Assembly: GCA_035697485.1 (NCBI GenBank)
Contig: DASSCU010000017.1
Coordinates: forward strand, 62,001-126,000
Direction of reading: 5' to 3'
Length of the DNA stretch: 64,000 nt
Source of the DNA: Actinomycetota bacterium
GTDB lineage: Bacteria; Actinomycetota; UBA4738; HRBIN12
Position 1 is the stretch's first letter. Each line of letters begins with the position of its first letter. A program made the position numbers and the translations under genes. This document shows positions 5,392 to 51,252 of this stretch, in pieces. A model generated the notes under the pieces. That model was given only the letters and a program-made list of their open reading frames with translations. It had not been told where the DNA came from and made no database searches.

Positions 5392-6774
5392 ATGCCGTTG
5401 CACGAGATCGCCGCGTCGGTGCGCCAGGGGCACGTGCCCGCCGAAGTCCTCGTCGCCGAGTCGCTCGGGCGCATCGAGCGCCTCGACGGTCCCATCAATG
5501 CGGTGGTACGCACACGTGGCGACGGCGCATTCGCCGACGCCGCCGCGATCGACGCCAGGGTCGAGGCCGGGGAGGATCCGGGTCCACTCTCGGGGCTCCC
5601 GCTGCTGGTGAAGGACAACGAGAACGCCGCCGGGCTGCCGACGACGTTCGGCTCGCTGCTCCGCGAGCACGCCGACCCCGCCGAGCGCGATTGCGAGGTC
5701 GTGTCCCGTCTGCGTGCCGCGGGCGCGATCGTCGTTGGGAAGACAAATGTGCCGGAGTTCGCGTTCGAAGGGTTCACCGCGAACCGGCTCTTCGGGGAGA
5801 CGCACGACCCCTGGGCGCTCGACTGGTCGCCGGGCGGCTCCAGCGGCGGGAGCGGGGCGGCGCTCGCCGCGGGCATGGCGCCGTTGGCCACCGGCACCGA
5901 CGGGGGCGGGTCGATCCGGATCCCCGCGGCGTTCTGCGGGCTCGTCGGTCTGAAACCAACCGGCGGGTTGATCGGGCACGATCCCCCGCCGTCGTGGATC
6001 GATCTGTCGACGAAGGGCCCGCTCGCCGTGAGCATCGCCGACGCGTCGCTACTGCTCGAGGTGATGCGCGGGCCCACGGCCGGCGATCCGAGGGCGGTGC
6101 CGACGTGGTCGCCCCGCGCCGATGCCTGGCCGGCTCGCATCGTGGCGACGCCGCGCATGGTCGACTACGGCCCGCTCCCGGCCTCGATCGATGCGCTGTT
6201 CGAGGAAGCGCTCGCCGGTCTCGCGTCGGCGACCGGCCTGACGATCGAGGGCGTCGCGCCGCCGTTCACCGAGCAGATCGACGATGACTGGTTCACCACG
6301 GTGGGCGTGGAGGAGCTCACGTGGCTCGGCCGCGACGTGCTCGACCGCGCCGACGACCTGACCCCGTACCTGCGGGGAGCGCTGGAGACCGCGGCCGCGA
6401 TCACGCCTGACGACTACCTCGCCGCCCGTCGTCGCCGGTTCACGTTCACGAGAGCGCTCGACGAGCTCCTCGGCACGGGCACCGTGCTCGTCTCGCCGAC
6501 GATGTGTGTCGAGGGCTTCTTCGCCGACGGCCGCTCGCCCGGCGACGACCGATCGGAGACGCCGGCATCCGCGTACAACACGCAGGCCGCGAACATCACA
6601 GGACATCCCGCCCTGTCCGTGCCGGCCGGTCGCTCGCCGAACGGTGTGCCGTTCGGCATCCAGATCACCGGTCCGCGGTTCGCCGACGACCTGGTGCTCG
6701 CGGTCGGGGCGGCATGGGAAGCCTCGTCGCCGTGGCCGCTCGCGGCGCCCGGGTACATGCCGTTCGGAGAGTGA
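5392..6774 (+). CDS. Amidase (amidase signature family)
   Basis: A 460-residue amidase-signature enzyme hydrolysing a carboxamide. The Ser-cisSer-Lys triad is visible: Lys74 in LLVKDNENAAG, the Gly/Ser-rich GGSSGGSGAALAAGMA around Ser150-151, and the nucleophile Ser174 in GTDGGGSIRIPAAFCG. Length and motif order match stand-alone amidases rather than GatA, and no gatB/gatC is nearby. The ATG at 5392 gives an N-terminal helix of the expected length. The gene stops three bases before the convergent ABC permease. Substrate is not predictable from sequence. Confidence 0.9.
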   Translation: MPLHEIAASVRQGHVPAEVLVAESLGRIERLDGPINAVVRTRGDGAFADAAAIDARVEAGEDPGPLSGLPLLVKDNENAAGLPTTFGSLLREHADPAERDCEVVSRLRAAGAIVVGKTNVPEFAFEGFTANRLFGETHDPWALDWSPGGSSGGSGAALAAGMAPLATGTDGGGSIRIPAAFCGLVGLKPTGGLIGHDPPPSWIDLSTKGPLAVSIADASLLLEVMRGPTAGDPRAVPTWSPRADAWPARIVATPRMVDYGPLPASIDALFEEALAGLASATGLTIEGVAPPFTEQIDDDWFTTVGVEELTWLGRDVLDRADDLTPYLRGALETAAAITPDDYLAARRRRFTFTRALDELLGTGTVLVSPTMCVEGFFADGRSPGDDRSETPASAYNTQAANITGHPALSVPAGRSPNGVPFGIQITGPRFADDLVLAVGAAWEASSPWPLAAPGYMPFGE

Positions 6775-6777
6775 AGC

Positions 6778-7572
6778 TCAGCTGGCGAGGTCGCGCCGCT
6801 CGAACGCGACGTGCGCGACGGCGAAGGACACGACGGCGATGCCGGCCAACACCGCCACATTCCGCACGTGGAGGCCACCCGCGAGCAGATGGGGGTCCTG
6901 GTACCAGCGGAAGGGTGAGAACGGACGGAGCGGGCGCAGCCACTCCACCGACGGTCCGATCGCGTGCACGATGAACGTGACGACGGCGAGACCCCCGCCC
7001 ACGGCGTTCGCCAGGGTTCGGCGGCCGGTGGCGGCCCCGACCGCGAACGCCACGCCGCCGAACGAGAGGCTGAGCAGCGCCAGCATCACACAGGCCGCAG
7101 CCACGTCCACGAACGGGACCGACAGGTCGAAGGCGGGCCCGAAGACCGCGATCGACGCGGCGGCGACGACGGCGAGCCCGATCGCGGCGCCCACGATCGC
7201 CAGCGCCTTCGTCGCGAGTACCTGCCGACGGCGGACGGGGGTTGACAAGAGCAGATCCAGCGTGCCGGCCTCCTCCTCACCCGCGATCGCGCGCGCTCCG
7301 GCCCCGATCGCGAAGATCAGGGCGATGAGCGCTCCCATCGTGTTGAAGAACTCGCTCTCGAGGTATCCGACGGGCGAGGTGTAGTCCTCGCCCGCCACGA
7401 TGGCGCGGATCGCGTCGGGCAGGTTCTCCATGTAGGCCTGCAGGTCCGCCGCGCTCTCCTTGATGCTCGGATAGAACGCCGCGTACATCAGGACCACGGC
7501 GGCCACACCGATGCCCCAGCCGATCATGCCTCGGCGCTGATCGCGCACCGCCTTGGCCAGCAGCCCCCTCAT
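6778..7572 (-). CDS. ABC-2 type transporter permease
   Basis: A 264-residue membrane subunit with a short cytoplasmic N-terminus (LLAKAVRDQRRGMIGW, typical of ABC-2 permeases), a first helix, an extracellular loop of about 80 residues, and five more hydrophobic helices including FAIGAGARAIAGEEEAGTLD, the conserved cytoplasmic coupling segment. Its ATG overlaps the stop of the ATPase gene (ATGA), so the two are translationally coupled and should assemble as one exporter. The transported molecule is unknown. Confidence 0.85.
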   Translation of the reverse strand: MRGLLAKAVRDQRRGMIGWGIGVAAVVLMYAAFYPSIKESAADLQAYMENLPDAIRAIVAGEDYTSPVGYLESEFFNTMGALIALIFAIGAGARAIAGEEEAGTLDLLLSTPVRRRQVLATKALAIVGAAIGLAVVAAASIAVFGPAFDLSVPFVDVAAACVMLALLSLSFGGVAFAVGAATGRRTLANAVGGGLAVVTFIVHAIGPSVEWLRPLRPFSPFRWYQDPHLLAGGLHVRNVAVLAGIAVVSFAVAHVAFERRDLAS

Positions 7573-8516
7573 GGCTCCGCCCCCTGGCCCGTGTCGTCGC
7601 CGGGGGTGCCGCTCTGGGGCTCCGATCCGTCGGCCCCGAAGTAGGTCAGGAACAGATCCTCGAGGCTCGGCTCACGGGTCTCGACGTTCACCACGGTGAA
7701 CCGCGCGGCCTGCTTGATCACGGCGTCGAGCGGGCCCTCGACGAAGAGCGACAGCTCGTCACCGTGCGAGTGGATCTCTCGCACGCTCGGAAGGCCCGCG
7801 AACGCATCGGCTGGGGCAGGCCCCTCGAAGTGCAGGTCGAGGCGTCGAAGCGCATGGGCTTTCAGCTGCCCGATGTCCTCGATCGCCACGAGGCGTCCCT
7901 CACGCACGATCGCCACGCGATCGCAGACGCGCTCGACTTCGGGCATCACATGCGAGGACAGGAACACCGTGAGGCCACGTGCCCGTTCCTCGTCGAGCAG
8001 GGCGTAGAACGTCTGCTGCACGAGCGGATCGAGACCCTGGGTCGGCTCGTCGAGCACCAGCAGGTCCGGCCGGTGCATGAACGCCTGCACGAGCCCGACC
8101 TTCTGCTTGTTCCCGTGGGAGAGATCCTTGATGCGTCGGGTCAGATCGAGCAGCAGCCGGCCGGCCACGTCCTCGACGAACGTCCACTCGACGCCGTGGC
8201 GGAGCGAGGCGAAGGTCCTGAGGTAGTCCTCGCCGGTCAGCCGCTGGTAGAGCGCGAGTTCGCCGGGCAGGTAGCCGAGCCTCGCATGCACGCGGACGCC
8301 GTCGACGCGAGGGTCCATGCCGAAGAGCCGGACCGAGCCCGACGTCGGCCTGATGAAGTCGAGCATCGTGCGGATGGTCGTCGTCTTCCCGGCGCCGTTG
8401 GGCCCGAGGAAGCCGAAGACCTCTCCCGGCGGCACGGCGAAGGTCAGGTCTTCGACCCCTCTGGACGCGCCGTACCGCTTCGTGAGCGACGTCGCCTCGA
8501 TGACCGGGGTGGTCAC
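7569..8516 (-). CDS. ABC transporter ATP-binding protein
   Basis: A 315-residue ATPase that energises the permease encoded downstream. Walker A GPNGAGKT is at residues 38-45, the signature is LSHGNKQKV, and Walker B is LLVLDEPTQGLDPL, followed by the switch region LSSHVMPEVERVCDR. The C-terminal extension of about 90 residues is the usual regulatory domain of ABC-2 exporters of the NatA/CcmA/DrrA type. The GTG at 8514-8516 is chosen because it precedes the first strand correctly and overlaps the stop of the formate/nitrite channel gene by four bases, coupling the three genes. Confidence 0.9.
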   Translation of the reverse strand: MTTPVIEATSLTKRYGASRGVEDLTFAVPPGEVFGFLGPNGAGKTTTIRTMLDFIRPTSGSVRLFGMDPRVDGVRVHARLGYLPGELALYQRLTGEDYLRTFASLRHGVEWTFVEDVAGRLLLDLTRRIKDLSHGNKQKVGLVQAFMHRPDLLVLDEPTQGLDPLVQQTFYALLDEERARGLTVFLSSHVMPEVERVCDRVAIVREGRLVAIEDIGQLKAHALRRLDLHFEGPAPADAFAGLPSVREIHSHGDELSLFVEGPLDAVIKQAARFTVVNVETREPSLEDLFLTYFGADGSEPQSGTPGDDTGQGAEP

Positions 8517-9367
8517 GGCGAGCCTTGTTTCGGTCGCAGGTACACGAACCAGTAGACGAGCCCAACGAGCACGGCGCCACCGATCACGTTGCCGATCGTC
8601 GCGGCCGCGAGGTTCGTGCCGAAGCCGGCGAGGTCGAGCCCGGCGAGCGCCGGATCGGCGGACGCGTCGTGCACGTCGCGTTCGAGCAGGAGTCCCACCG
8701 GGATGAAGTACATGTTCGCGATCGAGTGCTCGAACCCCGACGCCACGAAGGCGCTGATCGGGAAGATGATCGCGAAGATCTTGTCGACGATCGTCCGTCC
8801 GCCCGTCGCCAGCCACACGGCGAGGCACACGAGCGCGTTCGCGAGCACGGCCCTCCAGAACACCGTCCAGAACGGCAGCGCCGCCTTGCCGGCTGCGATC
8901 GCGAGCGCCGTGACGCCCACCGCTCCCTCGCCTTGGTCGCCCCAGTCACCGAGCCAAACCATGATCGCGACCGAGAGGGCCCCGACGAAGTTGCCGGCGT
9001 ACACGATCCCCCAGTTCCGCAGCAGCCGCGACACCGGCACCTTGCCGCTGACCACGCTCATCACGATCAGGTTGTTGCCGGTGAAGAGCTCCGCCCCGGC
9101 GACGACCACGAGGATCAGACCGAGCGAGAATCCGATGCCGGCGAGCCATCTGGTGATGCCGTACCCGAGCTCCGACGCGGTGCCGATCATCGTCGAGAGC
9201 ACGGCGCCGAGGGCGATGAATGCGCCCGCCAGCACGCCGAGCACGAACGTGGCGAGGAACGGCGCGCCGGCCTTGGCGACGCCACGGGTCTCCACCAGGG
9301 TGGCGATCTCTGCGGGCGCGAACGCGTCCATGCCGGACATGGGGTGCGGTGCAGGTGTCTGACTCAT
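8513..9367 (-). CDS. Formate/nitrite transporter family channel
   Basis: A 284-residue FNT channel (FocA/NirC family) for monovalent anions such as formate, nitrite or hydrosulfide. Six hydrophobic helices are visible. Family hallmarks are AGAELFTGNNLIV (broken helix 2 region) and SGFEHSIANMYFIP, which holds the central-pore histidine of helix 5. The start is placed at the second Met (MSQTPAPH); the longer frame would add an Arg-rich segment with no family match. It is the first gene of a coupled unit with the ABC exporter, an unusual partner. Confidence 0.88.
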   Translation of the reverse strand: MSQTPAPHPMSGMDAFAPAEIATLVETRGVAKAGAPFLATFVLGVLAGAFIALGAVLSTMIGTASELGYGITRWLAGIGFSLGLILVVVAGAELFTGNNLIVMSVVSGKVPVSRLLRNWGIVYAGNFVGALSVAIMVWLGDWGDQGEGAVGVTALAIAAGKAALPFWTVFWRAVLANALVCLAVWLATGGRTIVDKIFAIIFPISAFVASGFEHSIANMYFIPVGLLLERDVHDASADPALAGLDLAGFGTNLAAATIGNVIGGAVLVGLVYWFVYLRPKQGSP

Positions 9368-22173: not shown

Positions 22174-23354
22174 ACGAACCGCCGCTCGAGCAGGTCTTCC
22201 GCCAGCGCTGGGGCTACGTGCTCGCGTCCCTGATCGGCTTCCTCGGCGACGTGGATCTCGCCGAGGAAGCCGCCCAGGACGCCTTCGCCGTCGCCACGGA
22301 GCGCTGGCCTCGCGACGGAGTGCCGACGAACCCGGGCACTCGGCTCGTGAGCACCGCACGGAACCGGGCGATCGATCGCATCCGACGGGAGCGCACGTTC
22401 GCCGCGAAGGCGCAGCTGCTCGCCGCGGAGCCGCACGAGGAACCGATGGCACCCACGACGTTTCCCGACGAGCGGCTCGAGCTGATCTTCATGTGCTGCC
22501 ATCCGGCGCTGTCGGTCGAGTCGCAGGTCGCGCTCACCTTGCGAACCCTCGGCGGCCTGACCACCGACGAGATCGCCCGCGCGTTCGTGGTGCCGGAACC
22601 GACGATGAGCCAGCGTCTCACGCGCGCGAAACGGAAGATCGCCGCGGCGGCGATCCCGTTCCGGGTGCCACCCGACCACCTGCTGCCCGACCGCCTCGTC
22701 GCGGTGCTCGCGGTCGTGTATCTGGTCTTCAACGAGGGGTACTCGGCCTCGCCCACCCGCGGCGATCTCGCCGACGAAGCGATCCGGCTCGGTCGAGCGC
22801 TGGCCGAGCTGATGCCCGACGAGTCGGAGGTGCACGGTCTGCTGGCGTTGATGCTGCTCCTCGACGCTCGCCGCGACGCTCGGTTCGACGACGGCGAGAT
22901 CGTGCTCCTGGCCGACCAGGACCGCTCCCTCTGGGACGCCACGCAGATCGCCCAGGGCCGGGCCGCGCTCGACCGAGCACTCGCGATGCACGGCCACGGA
23001 CCGTATGTCGTGCAGGCGGCGATCGCGTCGCTACACGCCGACGAGTCCCGCGACTGGGCCGAGATCGCCGCCCTGTACCACGAGCTCTCCCGGCTCACCG
23101 ACTCGCCGGTCGTCGAGCTGAGCCGAGCCGTCGCGGTCGCCGAGACCGAGGGCACGGACGCAGGTCTCGCGATCGTCGACGGACTGAGCCTCGACAACTA
23201 CCGGTACATGCACAGCACCAGAGCCGAGCTACTCCGACGGCTCGGGCGCACCACGGAGGCTCGCGCCGCTCTCGAGAGAGCGCGGGAGATGACCCACGAC
23301 GAACCCGAGCGGCGGCTGCTCGATCGCAAGCTGGCGGAGCTCGGCTCGGACTGA
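22167..23354 (+). CDS. ECF42-group RNA polymerase sigma factor with C-terminal TPR-like domain
   Basis: A 395-residue sigma factor. Region 2 (GFLGDVDLAEEAAQDAFAVA, then TARNRAIDRIRRE) and region 4 (GGLTTDEIARAFVVPEPTMS) are both present. The remaining 220 residues are the helical C-terminal extension of the ECF42 group, ending in the conserved LDNYRYMHSTRAELLRRLGR. This group has no anti-sigma factor; the extension is thought to control activity. GTG 22167 lies inside the DGPF gene, so translation is coupled. Confidence 0.9.
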   Translation: MVDEPPLEQVFRQRWGYVLASLIGFLGDVDLAEEAAQDAFAVATERWPRDGVPTNPGTRLVSTARNRAIDRIRRERTFAAKAQLLAAEPHEEPMAPTTFPDERLELIFMCCHPALSVESQVALTLRTLGGLTTDEIARAFVVPEPTMSQRLTRAKRKIAAAAIPFRVPPDHLLPDRLVAVLAVVYLVFNEGYSASPTRGDLADEAIRLGRALAELMPDESEVHGLLALMLLLDARRDARFDDGEIVLLADQDRSLWDATQIAQGRAALDRALAMHGHGPYVVQAAIASLHADESRDWAEIAALYHELSRLTDSPVVELSRAVAVAETEGTDAGLAIVDGLSLDNYRYMHSTRAELLRRLGRTTEARAALERAREMTHDEPERRLLDRKLAELGSD

Positions 23355-36708: not shown

Positions 36709-39700
36709 TCAGAGCTGTCGCCCTCGAGCGAGCGCCTCGGCCTCGCCGTGCATCGCCGTGCGCTCCTCGAGCAGCGCGGCCAGCTCGTCGCTGCGCAACG
36801 GCTTCGCGAAGTAGTAGCCCTGCCCCATCTCGCAGCGCAGCTCCAGCAGCCGGTGGAGCTGGTCGGCCCGCTCGATGCCCTCGGCCACCGGCCTGAGGTT
36901 CAGGATGCCCGCGAGCTTGATCACGGCTTCGGTGAGCGCCGAGGCCTCGCCGCCGTCGTTCACGCCGTCGATGAAGGACTTGTCCACCTTGAGGATGTCG
37001 ACGGGGAACCGCCGGATGTAATTGAGCGACGAGTACCCGGTGCCGAAATCGTCGACCGCGAGCTGGACACCGAGCTGCTTCAGGTGGCCGAGGCGCTCGA
37101 TCGAGAGGTCCATGTCCTGCATCATCACGCTCTCGGTGATCTCCAGGATCAGCGAGTGCGGGTCCAGCCCCGTGTCGATGAGGATCTCGCGCACCTCTTC
37201 GACGAGTTCGGGACGCGCGATCTGACGGACCGAGAGGTTGACGGCCATGTGGATGGGCGGATCGCTCGGGAACCGTTCCTGCAGCTCGACGGCATGACGG
37301 CAGGCCTCGCGCAGCACCCAGCGCCCGATCGGCACGATCAATCCTGTCTCCTCGGCGAGCGGGATGAAGTCGAGGGGTGGCACCACCCCGCGGACGGGGT
37401 GGATCCAGCGGATCAGGGCCTCGACCCCCACGATGCGACCGCTCTCGAGCTCGATCACCGGCTGGTAGTGCAACCGGTACTCCTGGTGTTCGATCGCCCG
37501 TTGCAGGTCCGCCTTGAGCTCCAGGCGCTTGAGCGCGGTGTCGTGCATCGCGGGCTCGAAGACCTGGTAGCGGCCCTTCCCCCGCTCCTTCGCCATGTAC
37601 ATCGCGACGTCGGCGTTGCGCAGCAGCTCCTCCACATCGCCTCCGCGGTCGCCGTCCGCGGTCGCGATGCCGACCGACGACCGCACGAACACTTCCTTGC
37701 CCTCGAGGGTGAACGGGTCCTCGAGCATCGCCATGATGCGTTCGGCGACGTCGGCGGCAGTCACTCCCTTTTCGCCGTCCTCGAGCAGCACGGCGAACTC
37801 GTCGCCCCCGAGCCGGGCGGCGGTGTCCGCCGCCCGCAGGCACTTGCGCAATCGCTCCCCGACCTCGAAGAGCAGCTGGTCTCCGGCCGCGTGCCCGAGC
37901 GAGTCGTTGATCGTCTTGAAGTCGTCGAGGTCCATGAACAGCACCGAGATCGGCTCGTGGTCGCGGGACTGTCGCTCGAGGGCGTGGGAGACGCGGTCGT
38001 GGAACAGCGCCCGGTTCGCGAGGGTCGTGACGGAGTCGTGGAAGGCTTGGTGCTCGAGCTGTTCCTCGAAGCGCTTGCGCTCGGTCACGTCACGGACGTT
38101 CAGTACGATGCCTCCGACGTTGGGGTCGTCCGACTGATCGGAGATGAGCGTCTCCGTATGCAGATGCTCCCCACGGTTGTGCCGCACCCGCAGCTCGACC
38201 AGCACCGAGTCCCTCGTCTCCTCGTCGTGAGGTTCCATCGCGTGGAGGGCCTTCGGCACGTCGTCGGGGTGCACGAGCTCGGCGAACCTGGTGCCCTCCA
38301 ACACCCCCGGGTCGTAGCCGAGCATGCGTGCGACCGCGGGGCTGACGTAGCTGATCGTGGTGTCCCGGGTGACCACGCAGACGACATCGGACGAGTTGCT
38401 CACGAGCGACGCGAACCTCGCCTCGCTCTGCTGCTGGAGCAGGTTCCGGGTGAGGGCGGCCGACTCCAGCGCGAGCGCGACTTGCGTGCTCAGCGCGGTC
38501 AGCGAGTCGGTGAGAGACCGGTCCATCTCGTCAGGGGTCGCGACGACCATCAGTCCCCGGAGCTCGTCCTGTACGAACAGCGGGGCCGTGAAGACCGAGC
38601 CTTGCTCGATCCGCGCGAGGTAGAGGTCGGAGACGAGGGTGCTCTCGTGCGTCTGGACGACGAAGGCCGTGTTCGACTGCAGCTGCTCTCGCTTCCAGAC
38701 GGGGAACAGGGTCAACGTGAAGCGGGCGCCCTTCGCATCGCCACCCCCCGACGACGCCATCACCACGAACCGCCCGGGCCGCTGCGGTGAGTCGCACATG
38801 CGCACGGCCGCATCGTCACCGGCCAGCGCTGCGACGGCGTCGATCGCGGCACGGTGGATGCCGTCCTGGCTCGTCGCTGTCGCGAGCTTGGCGCCCGCCT
38901 CGCGGAGCGCCTTCTCCCTGACCGCGGATCCCTCCTGCGCTCGTGCCAGGCCCCACATACGCGCGACGACGAGCAGGAACATCACGATCGTGGCGTCGAC
39001 GAGGACCCCGACGCCTTCGCCGGTCTCGCCGGGCAGCAGCTGCAGCGCGATCATCGCGGGGGCGATCAGCGACGCGGCCGCCAGCAGGGCGAGCCGTAGC
39101 AACCCGAGGGGCCGCTCGTCGCTGGACGCTTCGGTCAGTGACGTCATCGTGGGGTGCACGGCGGCGAGCCCGATCAGGAGCGCGGCCGTCACGCTGCCGA
39201 AGAGCATCACCTGATCGGCCCCCATCATCGTGATGGTCGCGCCGGTCGTGAGGAGCAGGATCGCCCCGGCGTGACCGATGGCGACGGCGACGACGGCGCC
39301 CACGAGCGCCCACAGCGAGGCGCTCCTCGGTCGGGGCGTGATGGCCAGCCGGACCGCGACACCCACTAGGCAAACGTCCAGGAACCCTCCCGCCAGGTAG
39401 ATGATGCGGGTGTCGAGATCGAGGTTGCTCGCGGTCAGGGTCGGCTGCAGCATGGCGACCCATGCGATCGTGCCGATGCCGATGGCGACCGTGAAGGCGT
39501 CGATCGCCGCCGTCCGGTCGGGACCCCCGCAGCGCGCCCTCACGATCACCGTCGACGCCGTGATGAGGGCGACCGGCGCACCGAGCGCCAGCCACGCCGT
39601 CGCGCTCTGGAGGGCATCGGCCCCACCGGTCGAGACGAGGAGGCGATCGATCAAGGGCGGGATCGCGAGCAGCAGCACCGCCAACGTCAGTACGAGCCAG

Positions 39701-39858
39701 GCGATCCGGTGTCGCGGTGCGTGTCGGTGAACCCCGAGCAGGATCGCGACCGGCACGAGGCCACCCACGGCCACGCCGAGCTGCCATGGCACGTCACCGG
39801 GCACAGCGGCGGCGACCCCGGCCATCGGGGCGACGAAGAACCACACGTTCCGAGACAT
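36709..39858 (-). CDS. Membrane-anchored GAF-PAS-GGDEF-EAL cyclic-di-GMP protein
   Basis: A 1,049-residue signalling protein. About eight to nine membrane helices occupy residues 1-310. A GAF-like domain follows (about 325-465), then PAS (about 475-595, FASLVSNSSDVVCVVTRD) ending in NVRDVTERKRFEEQLEHQAF. GGDEF is intact (RLGGDEFAVLLE near 683, a diguanylate cyclase signature), as is EAL (GVEALIRW near 815) with NLSVRQIARPELVEEV, ILEITESVMM and AVDDFGTGYSSLNY, the phosphodiesterase metal-site residues. Both activities are thus possible. The N-terminal membrane region resembles a ligand-sensing module of unknown stimulus. Confidence 0.93.
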   Translation of the reverse strand: MSRNVWFFVAPMAGVAAAVPGDVPWQLGVAVGGLVPVAILLGVHRHAPRHRIAWLVLTLAVLLLAIPPLIDRLLVSTGGADALQSATAWLALGAPVALITASTVIVRARCGGPDRTAAIDAFTVAIGIGTIAWVAMLQPTLTASNLDLDTRIIYLAGGFLDVCLVGVAVRLAITPRPRSASLWALVGAVVAVAIGHAGAILLLTTGATITMMGADQVMLFGSVTAALLIGLAAVHPTMTSLTEASSDERPLGLLRLALLAAASLIAPAMIALQLLPGETGEGVGVLVDATIVMFLLVVARMWGLARAQEGSAVREKALREAGAKLATATSQDGIHRAAIDAVAALAGDDAAVRMCDSPQRPGRFVVMASSGGGDAKGARFTLTLFPVWKREQLQSNTAFVVQTHESTLVSDLYLARIEQGSVFTAPLFVQDELRGLMVVATPDEMDRSLTDSLTALSTQVALALESAALTRNLLQQQSEARFASLVSNSSDVVCVVTRDTTISYVSPAVARMLGYDPGVLEGTRFAELVHPDDVPKALHAMEPHDEETRDSVLVELRVRHNRGEHLHTETLISDQSDDPNVGGIVLNVRDVTERKRFEEQLEHQAFHDSVTTLANRALFHDRVSHALERQSRDHEPISVLFMDLDDFKTINDSLGHAAGDQLLFEVGERLRKCLRAADTAARLGGDEFAVLLEDGEKGVTAADVAERIMAMLEDPFTLEGKEVFVRSSVGIATADGDRGGDVEELLRNADVAMYMAKERGKGRYQVFEPAMHDTALKRLELKADLQRAIEHQEYRLHYQPVIELESGRIVGVEALIRWIHPVRGVVPPLDFIPLAEETGLIVPIGRWVLREACRHAVELQERFPSDPPIHMAVNLSVRQIARPELVEEVREILIDTGLDPHSLILEITESVMMQDMDLSIERLGHLKQLGVQLAVDDFGTGYSSLNYIRRFPVDILKVDKSFIDGVNDGGEASALTEAVIKLAGILNLRPVAEGIERADQLHRLLELRCEMGQGYYFAKPLRSDELAALLEERTAMHGEAEALARGRQL

Positions 39859-46381: not shown

Positions 46382-46419
46382 CGCGCCGGAGCATACCGGC
46401 GACCGCCGAGGCTGTGCCC

Positions 46420-47268
46420 TCAGACTCGGTCGAGGGGGCGGGTGAGACAGGTCGGTCCGCCGTCACCCTTGCGCGAGATCTCCGTGCCCGTGAACGTGCG
46501 GACGTCGACCCCCGCCGCCTCCATGCGTCGTCGAGTCTCGGGGCTCCCGTCGAGCGCGAGGGCCACTCGTGGGGCGAGCGCGAGCACGTTGGGGCCCTGG
46601 GTCTCGAACTCGTCGTCGGGCACCTCGACGAGCTCGACCTCTCGCTCCCGCAGGAGCGCGACCAGGCGCACCGGCATCATCGGCATGTAGACGACGACGA
46701 GATCGTGGTCGAGCGGGGAGATGAACGACATCAGGTGCAGGCACGCATCGGGCCCCTGGAAGTGCGGCAGATCGAACGCGATCACGTCGATCCCGCCGCC
46801 CAGCAACGACCGTATCTGCTCGATGCCATCGTCGTTCGTCCGGTAGCCGCGGCCGACCAGCAGGGTGTGCTCATCGAGCCAGAACATGTCGCCACCCTCG
46901 GCGACGGCCGGGGGCGAGAGCGTCCCCAGGAGGCGAAGACCCTGACTCGCGAGGTCGGCTGTGAGCGCCCCCGGTTCGGCCCGTCGACCCGGTTTGCCGG
47001 GGCGCAGGGCGATGACCCCCTGATCGGTCGGCAACGTGGGGTCGTACGCGTAGATGGCGTCGGGGTCGCCGGGCACGGTCGTGGCGCCGACCACGACCTC
47101 GGCACCGCGGGCCTCCAGCGCCTGACGGAACGCGGCGTGCTCCTCTGCCGCCTTCACGGGGTCGGGGGCGGCATGCCATGCGTAGTCACGCCATGCCAGG
47201 AGGGCGTCGGGATCGGGAGGCCGAACGTAGATGCGGCGGATCGTGCCGACAGCGTTCTGGATCGTCAC
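46420..47268 (-). CDS. Dimethylarginine dimethylaminohydrolase-like amidinohydrolase
   Basis: A 282-residue protein of the guanidine-modifying (GME) fold. AVAEGGDMFWLDEHTLLVG holds substrate-binding acidic residues, CLHLMSFISPLDHDLVVV the catalytic His region, and the catalytic Cys is Cys274 in GGPTCLTRPL near the C-terminus, as in DDAH and arginine deiminase. It should hydrolyse a guanidino compound such as dimethylarginine or arginine; which one is not decided by these motifs. Confidence 0.83.
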   Translation of the reverse strand: MTIQNAVGTIRRIYVRPPDPDALLAWRDYAWHAAPDPVKAAEEHAAFRQALEARGAEVVVGATTVPGDPDAIYAYDPTLPTDQGVIALRPGKPGRRAEPGALTADLASQGLRLLGTLSPPAVAEGGDMFWLDEHTLLVGRGYRTNDDGIEQIRSLLGGGIDVIAFDLPHFQGPDACLHLMSFISPLDHDLVVVYMPMMPVRLVALLREREVELVEVPDDEFETQGPNVLALAPRVALALDGSPETRRRMEAAGVDVRTFTGTEISRKGDGGPTCLTRPLDRV

Positions 47269-47292
47269 GGGGCCGAGCGCTCCGCGCCCAGG

Positions 47293-48822
47293 TCAGTGTC
47301 CTTCGGCGTTGCCGTTGCTCTCGGCGTTGCCGTCGCTCTCGGGGGTGCCTTCGCTCTCGGGGGTGCCGTCGCTCTCGGGGGTGCCGTCGCTCTCGGGAAT
47401 GCTGCCACCGCCGCCGTTGCCGCCACCGCCGCCATTGCCGTTGCCGTTGCCGCCACCGCCGCCGTTGCCCCCACCGCCGCCGTTGCCGCCACCGCCGCCG
47501 TGGCCCGGGTTGTCCTCGTCGTCGTTGCCGCCACCGTTGTCGTGGTCGTCCCCGTCGCCGTCGTTGCCGCCACCGTTGTCGTGGTCGTCTCCGTCGCCGT
47601 CGTTGCCGCCGCCCTTGTCGTGGTCGTCGTCACCGCCGTCACGAGCGTCGCCGGCATCTCCGCCGCTGTGGTCGTCGCCGCCCCCACCGGCGTTGATTCC
47701 GCTCCCGCCGCTCCCGCCGCTCCCGCCGTCGTCACCGCCTCCGCCAGCACCTCCGTCACCGGGGCCGATGTCACCAGCGTCGACGCCGATGTCGGGGGGT
47801 CCCGGGGGCTCGAGCGTCGTATCGCCCACGAGCGTGATGCCGGGGGAACCTGTCAGGCTGAGATCGTCGGCTGTGCCGCCTCCCCCCTCGCCTCCGTTGC
47901 CGCCGTCGCTGTTCTCGCCGCCGTCGGTCTCCCCCACCGTTCCCGGGGGGTTGTCGGTTCCGGGGTTCGGCGTGCTGGTGACCCCCTGCGACATCGGGGC
48001 TCCGCTGATGCCTCCGATCGGCACGCGGGTGCCGCCGAGCGCCAGGGCCAGCACGAGAGCGCTCGCCACCGCGGCCCCGCCGAGGGCGAGGTTGCCGAGA
48101 CGGCGGTTCAGGGCGCTCTGAGCACCCACCGCGCTTCCTCGAGCGGCCAACGACGCGACGGCCGCGCCGCCGCCGTCGGCCGCCGCGGCGGGCACGGATC
48201 CGGCGAGCGCCGCTGCGCCCGCCGCGCCCGCGACGAGCCCGGCCGCGGCACCTGCGCCGGCGTGCTCGTCGTCCGGCTCTGCGTCGGGAACGTTCAGGAT
48301 CAGCTCGTCGTGATCGATCGTCGGTGTGAGCGGCAGGATGACGACGGGTGCCGGCTCGCGGTCCTCGATGATCGCTTCGTCGGTCGCGGCGGCACCGCCG
48401 AACAGCATCGCGTTGAGCATGTCCGGATCGCTCGTCGCGCTTTCGATCAGCGCCGGACCACGTCCTGAACTCGTCGCGCTGGGCTGCCCCGTGAGTCGCT
48501 CGATCGTCGGGCCGAGATCCTGCAGCACGCGTGCGGGCTCGACACGCGCGGCACCCCCCACCGGCATGACCGCTCCCGGCCACACCAGGACCACCTTGGT
48601 GTTCGGGGACATCTCGTTGATCATGCCGACGGCCGTGGCGCCGATGCCGTCGTCGAGGACCACGACATCGGGACGGTGCCTCGCCATGAGGCGCGCGAGC
48701 TCAGCCGTCGTGGACGCCTCGGCCACGACGTCGTATCCCTCCCCATCCACGACGAAGCGGAGGAGGCCCTTCCGTTCGGACGGGCCTTCCCCGACAACGA
48801 TGCGGACGCCTCGTGCACTCAT
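47293..48822 (-). CDS. Pseudo-receiver domain, transmembrane helix and glycine/aspartate-rich repeat tail
   Basis: A 509-residue protein of unusual layout. Residues 1-90 resemble a response-regulator receiver (GVRIVVGEGPSERKGLLRFV, RHRPDVVVLDDGIGATAVGM with Asp57), but the usual N-terminal acidic pair and the Thr/Lys switch residues are lacking, so phosphorylation is doubtful. Residues 90-240 are Ala-rich and linker-like. One helix lies at about 246-266. The remaining 240 residues are Gly/Asp/Asn/Ser repeats, presumably outside the cell. A receiver on the cytoplasmic side with an extracellular disordered tail suggests a surface or signalling role I cannot name. Confidence 0.7.
   Translation of the reverse strand: MSARGVRIVVGEGPSERKGLLRFVVDGEGYDVVAEASTTAELARLMARHRPDVVVLDDGIGATAVGMINEMSPNTKVVLVWPGAVMPVGGAARVEPARVLQDLGPTIERLTGQPSATSSGRGPALIESATSDPDMLNAMLFGGAAATDEAIIEDREPAPVVILPLTPTIDHDELILNVPDAEPDDEHAGAGAAAGLVAGAAGAAALAGSVPAAAADGGGAAVASLAARGSAVGAQSALNRRLGNLALGGAAVASALVLALALGGTRVPIGGISGAPMSQGVTSTPNPGTDNPPGTVGETDGGENSDGGNGGEGGGGTADDLSLTGSPGITLVGDTTLEPPGPPDIGVDAGDIGPGDGGAGGGGDDGGSGGSGGSGINAGGGGDDHSGGDAGDARDGGDDDHDKGGGNDGDGDDHDNGGGNDGDGDDHDNGGGNDDEDNPGHGGGGGNGGGGGNGGGGGNGNGNGGGGGNGGGGSIPESDGTPESDGTPESEGTPESDGNAESNGNAEGH
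47320..47700. repeat. Tandem coding repeats in the glycine-rich tail
   Basis: On the minus strand this region encodes three copies of a GGGNDGDGDDHDN-like unit, several GGGGGNGG units and four of a PESDGT-like unit. The DNA repeats (for example the TTGCCGCCACCGCCG-like unit on the plus strand) are near perfect and prone to copy-number change or assembly error. Confidence 0.8.
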
Positions 48823-49044: not shown

Positions 49045-49452
49045 ATGGACGACGTGACGCTGCGGTGGACCGGCGAGGGCCTGACGTTCCGGTCCCAGGC
49101 CACTTACGGCGAGCCGATCCTGACCGGCGACGACCCCGACGGACCGGGATCGAAGCCCTCGGATCTGCTGCCGATCTCGCTCGCGGCCTGCACGGTCTAC
49201 GACGTCGTCGTGATCCTGCGCAAGCAGCGGCAGGATCTGCGCGCCCTCGAGGTCCGCATCTCGAGCGAGCAAGACCTCGCTCCGCCGTGGACGTTCCGGT
49301 CGATCCATATGCACTTCGTCCTGACGGGCACGGTCGAAGACCGCAGGGCGGCGCGGGCGATCGAGCTGTCAGAGTCGAAGTACTGCTCGGTGGCGGCGAC
49401 CCTCCGACCGGTGGTTCGGCTCAGTCACTCGTACGAGATCGTGGGGAGCTGA
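49045..49452 (+). CDS. OsmC/Ohr family peroxide-reductase-like protein
   Basis: A 135-residue protein with the two conserved cysteines of the family: Cys49 in ISLAACTVYDVVVILRKQ and Cys114 in SKYCSVAATLRP. The layout matches OsmC-type thiol peroxidases that detoxify organic hydroperoxides; the Arg expected near residue 15 is present (FRSQATYG). ATG 49045 follows GGAGGACGG. Divergent from the glycine-rich protein. Confidence 0.88.
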   Translation: MDDVTLRWTGEGLTFRSQATYGEPILTGDDPDGPGSKPSDLLPISLAACTVYDVVVILRKQRQDLRALEVRISSEQDLAPPWTFRSIHMHFVLTGTVEDRRAARAIELSESKYCSVAATLRPVVRLSHSYEIVGS

Positions 49453-49458
49453 ACCTCG

Positions 49459-50331
49459 TCAGAGTTTCCCTGTGACCTCAACCGTGGCCGACGCGGCGGG
49501 GAACCCGGGGCAGCGGAAGGAGACCGTCGCCGTTCCCCGGAAGCCAGTCACCACCCACGCATCGTCGACGACGCCCACGTCGATCGCGTCGAGTTCGACG
49601 TCGATAGGCGCCGGGGCGCTTCCTTCGCGGCCGCATCGTGCGGGCAGGCCCTCGACCGTGCCCACCCAACGACCGTCCTGGGGCTCGATCTCACCCTCGA
49701 GCCCCGACCAGGTCGATGGGCAGCCGCCCTGGCCGTCGCCGCACGTCGATTCGAACGACCATCGGTCGATACCCCGCCTTCCGGGGATCGGGTTCTCGAT
49801 GCCGAACGCGGCGCCGATCGAACGCGCCGAGCGCACCGTCAGGCCGACCCGGTAGATGCCGGCGAGCCGCGCGATCTCGTCGGGGGGCGTGGGTACCACC
49901 GCGTCGACCTCGGCGGTGGGGAGTGACTCGCCTTCACCGCTCACAGCGACGACCTGATAGGCGTAGCGCTGACCGAACGTCACGTCGCGGTCGACGAACG
50001 AGAGCTCGCTGCCGTTGAGTGTCTCGAGCGGCGCGCCGTCGCGAAGGAGCCGGTACCGCTCCACCCCCGCCCCGGACTCAGGCGGCCTCCAGTCCAGCGC
50101 GACGATCGGCGTGTAGCGCTCGCAGGGCTCCTCGCAGCTCGTCGCAGTGGCCTGCAAGGCGATCGGCACCGTCGGGGGTCCCGGCGAACGTGTGAACCAC
50201 AGGAGGGATGCGACCAGGATGCCGATGGCGACCACCAGGAGTCCGATCGCGAGGCGCCGATCGCGACGCGTCGGCGTGTCGGGTTCCGCCACGCTGTCGG
50301 GGTACGGAGGGTTCGGGGTGTCGGTTTCCAT
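49459..50331 (-). CDS. Membrane-anchored protein with fibronectin type III-like domain
   Basis: A 290-residue protein. The cytoplasmic N-terminus has a run of Pro/Asp, then one helix (RLAIGLLVVAIGILVASLLW). Outside is an Fn3-like module (IVALDWRPPESGAGVERYRL, AYQVVAVSGEGES) and a second beta domain with three Cys pairs (FESTCGDGQGGCPSTW). It shares the Fn3-plus-beta layout with the lipoprotein gene five bases upstream on the same strand. The long N-terminal frame extension is antisense to other genes, so ATG 50331 is used. Confidence 0.72.
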   Translation of the reverse strand: METDTPNPPYPDSVAEPDTPTRRDRRLAIGLLVVAIGILVASLLWFTRSPGPPTVPIALQATATSCEEPCERYTPIVALDWRPPESGAGVERYRLLRDGAPLETLNGSELSFVDRDVTFGQRYAYQVVAVSGEGESLPTAEVDAVVPTPPDEIARLAGIYRVGLTVRSARSIGAAFGIENPIPGRRGIDRWSFESTCGDGQGGCPSTWSGLEGEIEPQDGRWVGTVEGLPARCGREGSAPAPIDVELDAIDVGVVDDAWVVTGFRGTATVSFRCPGFPAASATVEVTGKL

Positions 50332-50336
50332 GAGGA

Positions 50337-51158
50337 TCAGGTCTGCAGGAGCCCCTGCACGCTCCAGTCGATCGTCGCGGTCATGCATCCACCGTACGAT
50401 GAGATCTCGTCGATCGCGCCGACGAACTTCGTCGCCCGCCATCTTCCCTCCAACGGGGCCGCCTTGCTGACCCGCAGGCGCACCTCGAGCACCTCCTCGA
50501 CCACCTCGCCGAAGCAGTTGCGGACGAACAACGGGGTGCGCAGGGTGGCCTCGTAGACGCCATCGGTCCGTCGGAGCGTCCCTTCGGTTCGGGCACTGCG
50601 CACGTTCCAGCGGACGTCGCACGCCCCAGAACGGCAGCGGGGGTCGAAGGTGAAGAAGATCGCGCCTCCGCGGACCGGGTCGCTGGTTCCCGAGGCACGT
50701 TCCACGACCATGCGCACGGAGAAGGTGCCCTCGAGGCGCGCGTCCGACACCTTCGGTTCCTCGGTCCTGATCGACACGGCGGCCCCGAGCGTCTCGACAC
50801 CGTGGACGTCGACGCCGACGACCTCGTACCGGTAGCGGGCCCCCGGTTCCACATCGTCGTCGAGGAAGGTCGTCTCCTCGACCTCTTCGCCGACCGTCAC
50901 GCCGTCGCGTCGCACCTCGTAGTGGTCGATCACGACGTCGGTCGGCTCCCCCCACGAAACGCGCAGCCGCCAGTCCGCGCCGCTCGCCTTCCATCCGGGC
51001 TCGTCGATCGTGAGGCCATCGATCTCGACCTGCTCGGTCGGAGTGGCCAGCTGCGTGGCCGAGGCCGCCGGTGAGGGATCGCCGGATCCGGATCCCGAGG
51101 TGCACGCGGCCAACGACACCACAGCGAATGTCCAGGCGATGCGCCGGCCGGTCGGCAT
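50337..51158 (-). CDS. Lipoprotein with fibronectin type III-like domain
   Basis: A 273-residue lipoprotein. The lipobox is SLAAC (Cys19) after RRIAWTFAVV. An Fn3-like module follows (RLRVSWGEPTDVVIDHYEVR, RYRYEVVGVDVHGVE), then a beta domain with Cys residues in DPRCRSGACDVRWNV and RNCFGEVVE. It is tightly linked to the next gene, which has the same two-part plan, so the two probably descend from a duplication and may form a surface complex. Confidence 0.75.
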   Translation of the reverse strand: MPTGRRIAWTFAVVSLAACTSGSGSGDPSPAASATQLATPTEQVEIDGLTIDEPGWKASGADWRLRVSWGEPTDVVIDHYEVRRDGVTVGEEVEETTFLDDDVEPGARYRYEVVGVDVHGVETLGAAVSIRTEEPKVSDARLEGTFSVRMVVERASGTSDPVRGGAIFFTFDPRCRSGACDVRWNVRSARTEGTLRRTDGVYEATLRTPLFVRNCFGEVVEEVLEVRLRVSKAAPLEGRWRATKFVGAIDEISSYGGCMTATIDWSVQGLLQT

Positions 51159-51252
51159 CCGCGGATGGTACCGGGCCGTCGCATCATCAGGAAACCCCCT
51201 TCGCACCGGCGGTCAAGCCGGACGGCACTGCCGCCGATACCCTCGCCTGTCT

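Follow-up and report, generated by a model that had tools for sequence, protein, structure and literature searches.

What does a cell do with a receiver-like domain that carries no recognizable output domain and is followed by a membrane helix and a long glycine-rich tail? A gene with this layout lies in the DNA analyzed here, a stretch of 64,000 nucleotides from an Actinomycetota bacterium that we refer to as the window, and its product is called the window protein below. We asked whether its N-terminal domain is a receiver, whether its active site could still work, how far the layout recurs among relatives, and what the outside part of those relatives says about function.

Layout of the gene and its product

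Positions 47293-48822 on the minus strand of the window hold an open reading frame of 509 amino acids with an ATG start, divided as follows:

48484..48822, minus strand: pseudo-receiver domain, residues ~1-113, with E12, G13, D57, W81 and P96 and an alpha4 region 7 residues shorter than in 12 of 13 canonical receiver rows
48091..48483, minus strand: predicted cytoplasmic linker, residues 114-244 (131 aa), evolving faster than the receiver, with an Ala/Gly-rich stretch at ~192-210
48034..48090, minus strand: predicted membrane helix, residues 245-263, identical at 19 of 19 positions to that of the congener
47296..48033, minus strand: low-complexity Gly/Asp/Asn/Pro tail, predicted to lie outside, residues 264-509, repeat-rich and of species-variable length

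The sequence-only reading of this locus had described a receiver, one membrane helix and a tail. The predicted helix, which is the strongest hydrophobic segment of the protein (mean Kyte-Doolittle hydropathy, KD, 2.20), and the tail of 246 residues (38% Gly, 15% Asp, 8% Asn) bear that description out, except that the 131-residue linker between receiver and helix had been omitted from it. The tail DNA contains tandem repeats, periods of 18, 30 and 39 bp among them. The motif PG[RK]SAxHNPxGGPPG is common to the tails of four of the seven proteins grouped as subgroup A below (L032, L034, L035 and L036) and was not found in the window protein, itself one of the seven. As had also been stated, the protein has no DNA-binding or enzymatic output domain: no Pfam family other than the receiver matches it up to E = 10. 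A large antisense frame (46414-48468, plus strand) was set aside as unsupported; the low dN/dS of the receiver (0.06) agrees with coding on the minus strand.

The N-terminal domain as a receiver homolog

As a single sequence, the window protein matches the Pfam receiver family weakly (PF00072, residues 20-80, E = 0.002, 18.7 bits, below the curated score of 30.2), and in the PF00072 scan of its own genome it is the weakest among the 47 receiver matches listed (E = 5.3e-4). A phmmer search of the PDB sequences gave a CheY as the top match (E = 1.5e-4). Profile comparison gave a strong result: when the seven rows of subgroup A were compared by hhalign with 13 canonical receiver rows, residues 3-114 aligned at 99.1% (E = 7.6e-19), and 20 column-shuffled profiles used as a control reached 0.1-2.2%. 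Two outlying receivers (L100_139 and L104_66) had been removed from the canonical set for this comparison and for the residue counts below. Judged by these profiles, the domain is a receiver homolog, as first proposed.

Ten further family proteins or stretches were scanned with PF00072; four pass the curated score (L043, L045, L046 and L047), four score under it (L037, L041, L048 and L081), and L040 and L084 have no receiver match. An AF2 model of the receiver, made from two rows only (the window protein and one relative), was poor (pLDDT 54.8, pTM 0.54, residues 1-32 below 50), and Foldseek with this model returned 15 receiver-containing entries among its top 16 PDB matches, none with E <= 0.001 and with a best TM-score of 0.48.

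Distribution and phylogeny of the family

A family profile (A1) was built from 20 relatives, all of them among the 26 proteins analyzed below, so that their own E-values are set by construction. At E <= 1e-15 it gave 27 matches, 7 of them outside A1, and reached all 17 searched genomes of the taxonomic family; none of the 10 other genomes of the order (here the same 27 genomes as the class) had a match at this threshold. One of the matches (G016:C185) is a fragment of a subgroup-B protein, leaving 26 usable proteins. In the handles used here, G000 is the window's own genome and G001 that of the congener. Among 396 genomes of the phylum, with up to 11 candidates scored in each, 54 had a match at E <= 1e-15, comprising the 17 of the family and 37 others; at 13 loci inspected from these 37 genomes, the hydropathy behind the receiver stayed below 1.0 or the reading frame ended.

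Phylogenetic analysis of 41 rows grouped the 26 from the family into a single clade (support 97/93), separate from the 15 receiver rows that the 13 outside loci had given; 13 of those 15 (two outliers set aside) carry all five active-site residues. The outside row nearest to the family is a single-domain receiver with a YVEKG motif in beta5 (L098, from G027); unlike the family, it has a complete active site and its frame ends behind the receiver. Within the family, subgroups A (7 proteins, including the window protein) and B (7) are jointly a clade (100/99, branch 1.05). Neither C nor A is a clade: subgroup C (5) collects the leftover proteins, and the tree leaves A unresolved. The remaining subgroups are Cb (4) and D (3).

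Active-site residues by subgroup

The domain had been read as a degenerate receiver that keeps Asp57 only. In all seven subgroup-A proteins the positions of D12, D13, D57, T87 and K109 hold E, G, D, W and P, so that Asp57 is indeed kept and D13, T87 and K109 are lost, while the DD pair retains one acidic side chain in the form of a Glu (E12). None of the seven thus carries the residue set of a phosphorylatable response regulator (DD pair, D57, T/S87, K109). Receiver homology without key catalytic residues is how a pseudo-receiver is defined in a 2025 review (PMC12632262), and by its sequence the domain falls under this definition. The window protein as a pseudo-receiver with a predicted membrane helix and a predicted outside tail is, as an observation, confirmed.

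The other subgroups have lost different residues. Subgroup B has Glu at D12, never Asp at D13, retains D57, has Trp at T87 and replaces K109 by Pro (six proteins) or Thr (one). In subgroup C, D57 is replaced by His, Asn or Gln and the Lys is gone, with D12 kept in four proteins and D13 in three. Subgroup Cb has lost D12 (4/4) and D13 (3/4) and retains D57, T and K, from which it appears that some family members might still be phosphorylated. Subgroup D has lost all five. K109 is therefore absent in A, B, C and D (22 of the 26 proteins), and Asp57 is absent in 8 of the 26, with the layout unchanged in these.

A and B have a further change in common. In the beta4-beta5 interval, which contains the alpha4 region, 7 residues are missing in 14 of 14 A and B rows; by comparison, 12 of the 13 canonical rows are complete here, the thirteenth lacks 6 residues, and C, Cb and D lack 0-3. 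Nine A/B representatives have 15 invariant positions, eight of which deviate from the canonical consensus (E12, E28, L42, V80, W81, P82, V85 and G104); four of these eight, E12, W81, P82 and V85, lie on former active-site loops. Given the invariant new residues and the short alpha4 region, the A/B active site looks more like one that was rebuilt than one that decayed.

These residues bear on the idea that a histidine kinase phosphorylates D57 and that the helix conveys the signal outward to a polymer on the surface. The aspartate is retained in 7/7 A, 7/7 B and 4/4 Cb proteins, and one subgroup-C gene (in G009) stands ahead of a PAS histidine kinase gene. The residues that would accompany such a switch are nevertheless gone in A and B (D13, T87, K109), where the alpha4 region is also short, proteins without D57 have the same layout, and none of the genome's 42 HATPase matches falls in the window; we hold this mechanism to be very improbable.

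Selection on the receiver

Rates of nonsynonymous and synonymous substitution were compared for seven pairs of genes, three in subgroup A, one in B, two in D and one, very close, in C. In this order, dN/dS of the receiver was 0.059, 0.057 and 0.090 (A), 0.385 (B), 0.155 and 0.088 (D) and 0.405 (C); that of the linker was 0.238, 0.422 and 0.421, 0.996, 0.507 and 0.728, and undefined; and that of the outside part was 0.522, 0.151 and 0.285, 0.444, 0.345 and 0.316, and 0.198, the tail values coming from alignments that are repetitive and contain gaps (124 such columns for G000/G001). Apart from the 19-residue helix, nothing in the protein is as constrained as the receiver in six of the seven pairs; the exception is the C pair, where the outside part has the lower value. 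Three pairs have the same helix sequence, and the rest are 68-95% identical there. On these ratios, the receiver is under purifying selection. A decaying, functionless relic would have a degenerate active site and a variable tail, as this family does, yet five of the seven pairs have a receiver dN/dS of 0.06-0.16 and two have 0.39 and 0.41, the helix is unchanged in three, and a match occurs in 17 of 17 family genomes; we give this reading practically no weight.

Membrane helix and predicted topology

The architecture recurs: in the survey of the family and of the 396-genome phylum sample, a strong predicted helix follows the receiver in 25 of the 26 family proteins (KD at least 1.86, searched for behind residue 100). 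The exception (G011Cb), which contains Ns and a broken frame, is excluded from the 25. In the 15 residues flanking the helix on either side, Lys and Arg are more numerous on the receiver side in 18 of the 25, equal in 6 and fewer in 1; the window protein has two before the helix and one behind. This bias, drawn from sequences that are related and not independent, favors a predicted topology with the receiver inside and the tail outside. The linker of the window protein has a second, weaker Ala/Gly-rich hydrophobic stretch at ~192-210 (KD 1.66) with a counterpart in the congener G001; if this segment crossed the membrane, the tail of the window protein would be inside. Some other relatives have weak linker hydropathy peaks at other places, and relatives without the 192-210 segment retain the main helix.

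The subgroup-D proteins (L082, L083 and L084) have a Ser/Pro-rich outside region with a second hydrophobic stretch near the C-terminus (KD 1.74-1.78), followed by basic residues, which looks like a sorting signal or a second helix.

An outside domain shared with proteins of sigma operons

A conserved stretch of about 85 residues follows the helix in the C, Cb and D proteins. We built a profile of this ectodomain (A6) from 9 of the 12 C/Cb/D proteins, whose own E-values are again set by construction, and searched the 396 phylum genomes with it, scoring up to 13 candidates in each. It gave 15 matches, namely the 12 C/Cb/D genes (11 in frame, that of G011 in a shifted frame) and three genes from outside the family, in G022, G024 and, as a second protein, G006 (E 4e-20 to 8e-16). 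All three outside genes start within the end of an ECF sigma gene, with a 4-bp overlap, and the sigma gene encodes regions 2 and 4 in each case. An overlap of this kind is the usual arrangement for anti-sigma genes, and this position marks the three proteins as putative anti-sigma factors. Each has one helix (KD 2.06-2.72) with more Lys and Arg before than behind it, that of G022 having two weaker peaks besides. Two of the three have a trace of DUF5667 below the cut-off, and none matches a curated anti-sigma domain. The reverse profile, made from the three sigma-operon proteins, recovered all C/Cb/D proteins but one (11/12, with E-values from 3e-14 to 4e-7) and 0 of 1040 shuffles. The shared ectodomain is absent from all 14 A and B proteins, the window protein included (reverse profile 0/14), and none was found elsewhere in the window's own genome in a search run without a positive control. 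This sharing is the main new result; at the level of sequence it links the family, and the window protein only indirectly, to sigma/anti-sigma signaling.

When we searched the window and 28 family-region loci by tblastn with four ECF references, sigma genes were found only beside D genes and at 22185-23117 of the window. An ECF42-type sigma gene adjoins the D gene in G016 and in G004, with only fragments of one in G014; the orientation is convergent with the family gene. No ECF sigma gene lies directly ahead of the window gene, whose upstream neighbor is an OsmC gene on the opposite strand; for this reason, and because it has no shared ectodomain, the window protein is not classed as an anti-sigma factor. 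The sigma gene at 22185-23117 (plus strand) is ECF42-like; it shares 76% identity across 312 residues with the sigma gene next to one of the subgroup-D pseudo-receiver genes.

As a rule, the proteins of ECF sigma operons relay signals inward from outside the cell. The sequence-only reading had suggested the reverse, a cytoplasmic signal coupled to an envelope polymer, and this direction is now disfavored by the loss of K109 in 22/26 and of D57 in 8/26 proteins together with the occurrence of the sister-subgroup ectodomain in ECF sigma operons.

Proposed function

Receiver homology, loss of the switch residues, the common layout, selection and the sister-subgroup ectodomain in sigma operons together suggest that the family is anti-sigma-like. 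Its members would be single-pass membrane proteins with the receiver inside and the C-terminus outside, in which a receiver without phosphorylation chemistry may have become a phosphorylation-independent docking domain. The outside part would sense the state of the envelope, and the signal would pass inward to the cytoplasmic pseudo-receiver, which would hold or recruit a regulatory partner at the membrane much as a membrane anti-sigma factor does. Because its own subgroup lacks the shared ectodomain, the tail of the window protein is taken as a putative wall-spanning tether. We put forward this class of anti-sigma-like one-component transducers, for which we infer topology, signal direction and partner, as a tentative proposal that falls somewhat short of probable. 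A bolder version, in which the lineage swapped the sigma-binding domain of membrane anti-sigma factors for a pseudo-receiver, making the receiver fold the cytoplasmic output of an outside sensor and the family a new one-component class, is conceivable and rather less likely.

Like membrane ECF anti-sigma factors, some of which have a DUF5667-like stretch, these proteins have a predicted N-terminal cytoplasmic part, one predicted helix and a low-complexity tail, and the sister subgroups share their outside domain with three putative ones. Unlike them, the window protein has a receiver homolog as its cytoplasmic domain, no adjoining ECF sigma gene and no shared outside domain. RsgI-type anti-sigma factors also have a cytoplasmic binding domain, one helix and a long outside region.

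Bacterial pseudo-receivers (FrzS, ShkA REC1, CikA and WhiI) lack the full set of phosphotransfer residues and work through, among other things, the binding of proteins or ligands; according to the same review, their on/off switching mechanisms remain a mystery (PMC12632262). The window family resembles them in receiver homology and missing phosphotransfer residues and differs in that a single membrane helix and a tail predicted to lie outside follow the domain; neither "transmembrane" nor "extracellular" appears in the text of that review on pseudo-receivers. In the open-licence PMC literature, searched by titles and abstract starts, we found no receiver with one membrane helix and an outside tail, and the exact phrases membrane-bound, transmembrane, membrane-anchored and membrane-associated response regulators gave nothing in that literature. 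A family-wide set with one layout, distinct active-site states and a link to ECF sigma factors offers a defined system for phosphorylation-independent receiver function, in which domain exchange between two-component and sigma/anti-sigma systems can also be tested.

Gene neighborhood

The following genes near the window gene were compared with those around its relatives:

36709..39858, minus strand: GGDEF-EAL gene
46420..47268, minus strand: arginine deiminase/DDAH-family gene, 24 bp downstream of the window gene on the same strand
49045..49452, plus strand: OsmC gene, on the other side of the window gene
49459..50331, minus strand: gene for a membrane-anchored protein with a weak FN3 match and a second predicted beta region
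50337..51206, minus strand: gene for a putative lipoprotein whose FN3-plus-beta region is related to that of the 49459..50331 gene, which follows 5 bp downstream

A DDAH-family gene also lies downstream of the relative in G014 and G016. In G002 and G012, OsmC and DDAH matches stand back to back, 125 and 205 bp apart, with no pseudo-receiver gene between them, from which the window gene was probably gained or lost as a unit at this site.

Beyond DDAH and OsmC lie the two FN3-beta genes and a gene for NAD-glutamate dehydrogenase. A structure model of the FN3 neighbor is confident in the FN3 part and mostly below pLDDT 50 in the rest. In G002 (L040:9355-10710), one family protein has a pseudo-receiver and membrane helix followed by an FN3-beta ectodomain of its own, which suggests that outside parts have been exchanged within the family. 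FN3-beta relatives in G004, G006, G009 and G014 lie on other contigs or more than 50 kb from family genes. Two FN3-beta-related stretches stand in tandem in G009 (C4:512062-513578).

G006 has an ECF sigma/anti-sigma pair in the vicinity of FN3-beta and glutamate dehydrogenase genes (L147:6069-9353). We considered this pair as a stand-in for the pseudo-receiver gene and dropped the idea, as it is not repeated at the glutamate dehydrogenase loci of 8 further genomes, where no sigma, anti-sigma, ectodomain or FN3-beta match was found in stretches some of which are short (5.7-18 kb).

In 5 of 17 genomes (G000 itself, G008, G010, G011 and G015), the GGDEF-EAL gene or a relative 59-69% identical to it lies no more than ~8 kb from a family gene, next door in three, and the GGDEF-EAL protein is a possible partner of the pseudo-receiver. 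This proximity, together with the four new residues on the former active-site loops (E12, W81, P82, V85), would suit a pseudo-receiver that binds a nucleotide such as c-di-GMP and relays its state to a membrane partner, by analogy with the kinase ShkA (PMC7010744). The other 12 genomes, mostly many-contig assemblies, have no GGDEF-EAL relative within 8 kb; the c-di-GMP site of ShkA is at beta5-alpha5 (PMC7010744), and the aromatic residue at K-3 is replaced by Arg in 7/7 subgroup-A proteins. We consider ligand control improbable.

The remaining explanation is a static scaffold or wall anchor, in which the pseudo-receiver docks a cytoplasmic machine such as the Tad pilus or a division complex and the tail is fixed to the wall without any signal. 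Its precedent is the FrzS pseudo-receiver, which binds SgmX and brings it to the pole, so that type IV pili are activated (PMC12632262). Two family genes (in G007 and G006) lie less than 2 kb from a TadE gene, and low-complexity tails of variable length would suit a passive anchor. No TadE or pilus-ATPase gene lies near the remaining family loci compared, however, the pilus-ATPase relative of the window's own genome sits on another contig, and the anti-sigma-type ectodomain of the sister subgroups suggests sensing; a scaffold therefore seems unlikely to us, although it deserves to be taken seriously beside the anti-sigma-like transducer.

A single conserved partner gene was rejected, since DDAH, Tad genes, GGDEF-EAL, PAS kinase and ECF42 genes are each near some members only. 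At 6423-8712 of locus L096 (G000:C25) in the window's own genome, three receiver-containing genes with low receiver scores (24.8-40.1 bits) stand in tandem, and the same contig also bears a pilus-ATPase relative.
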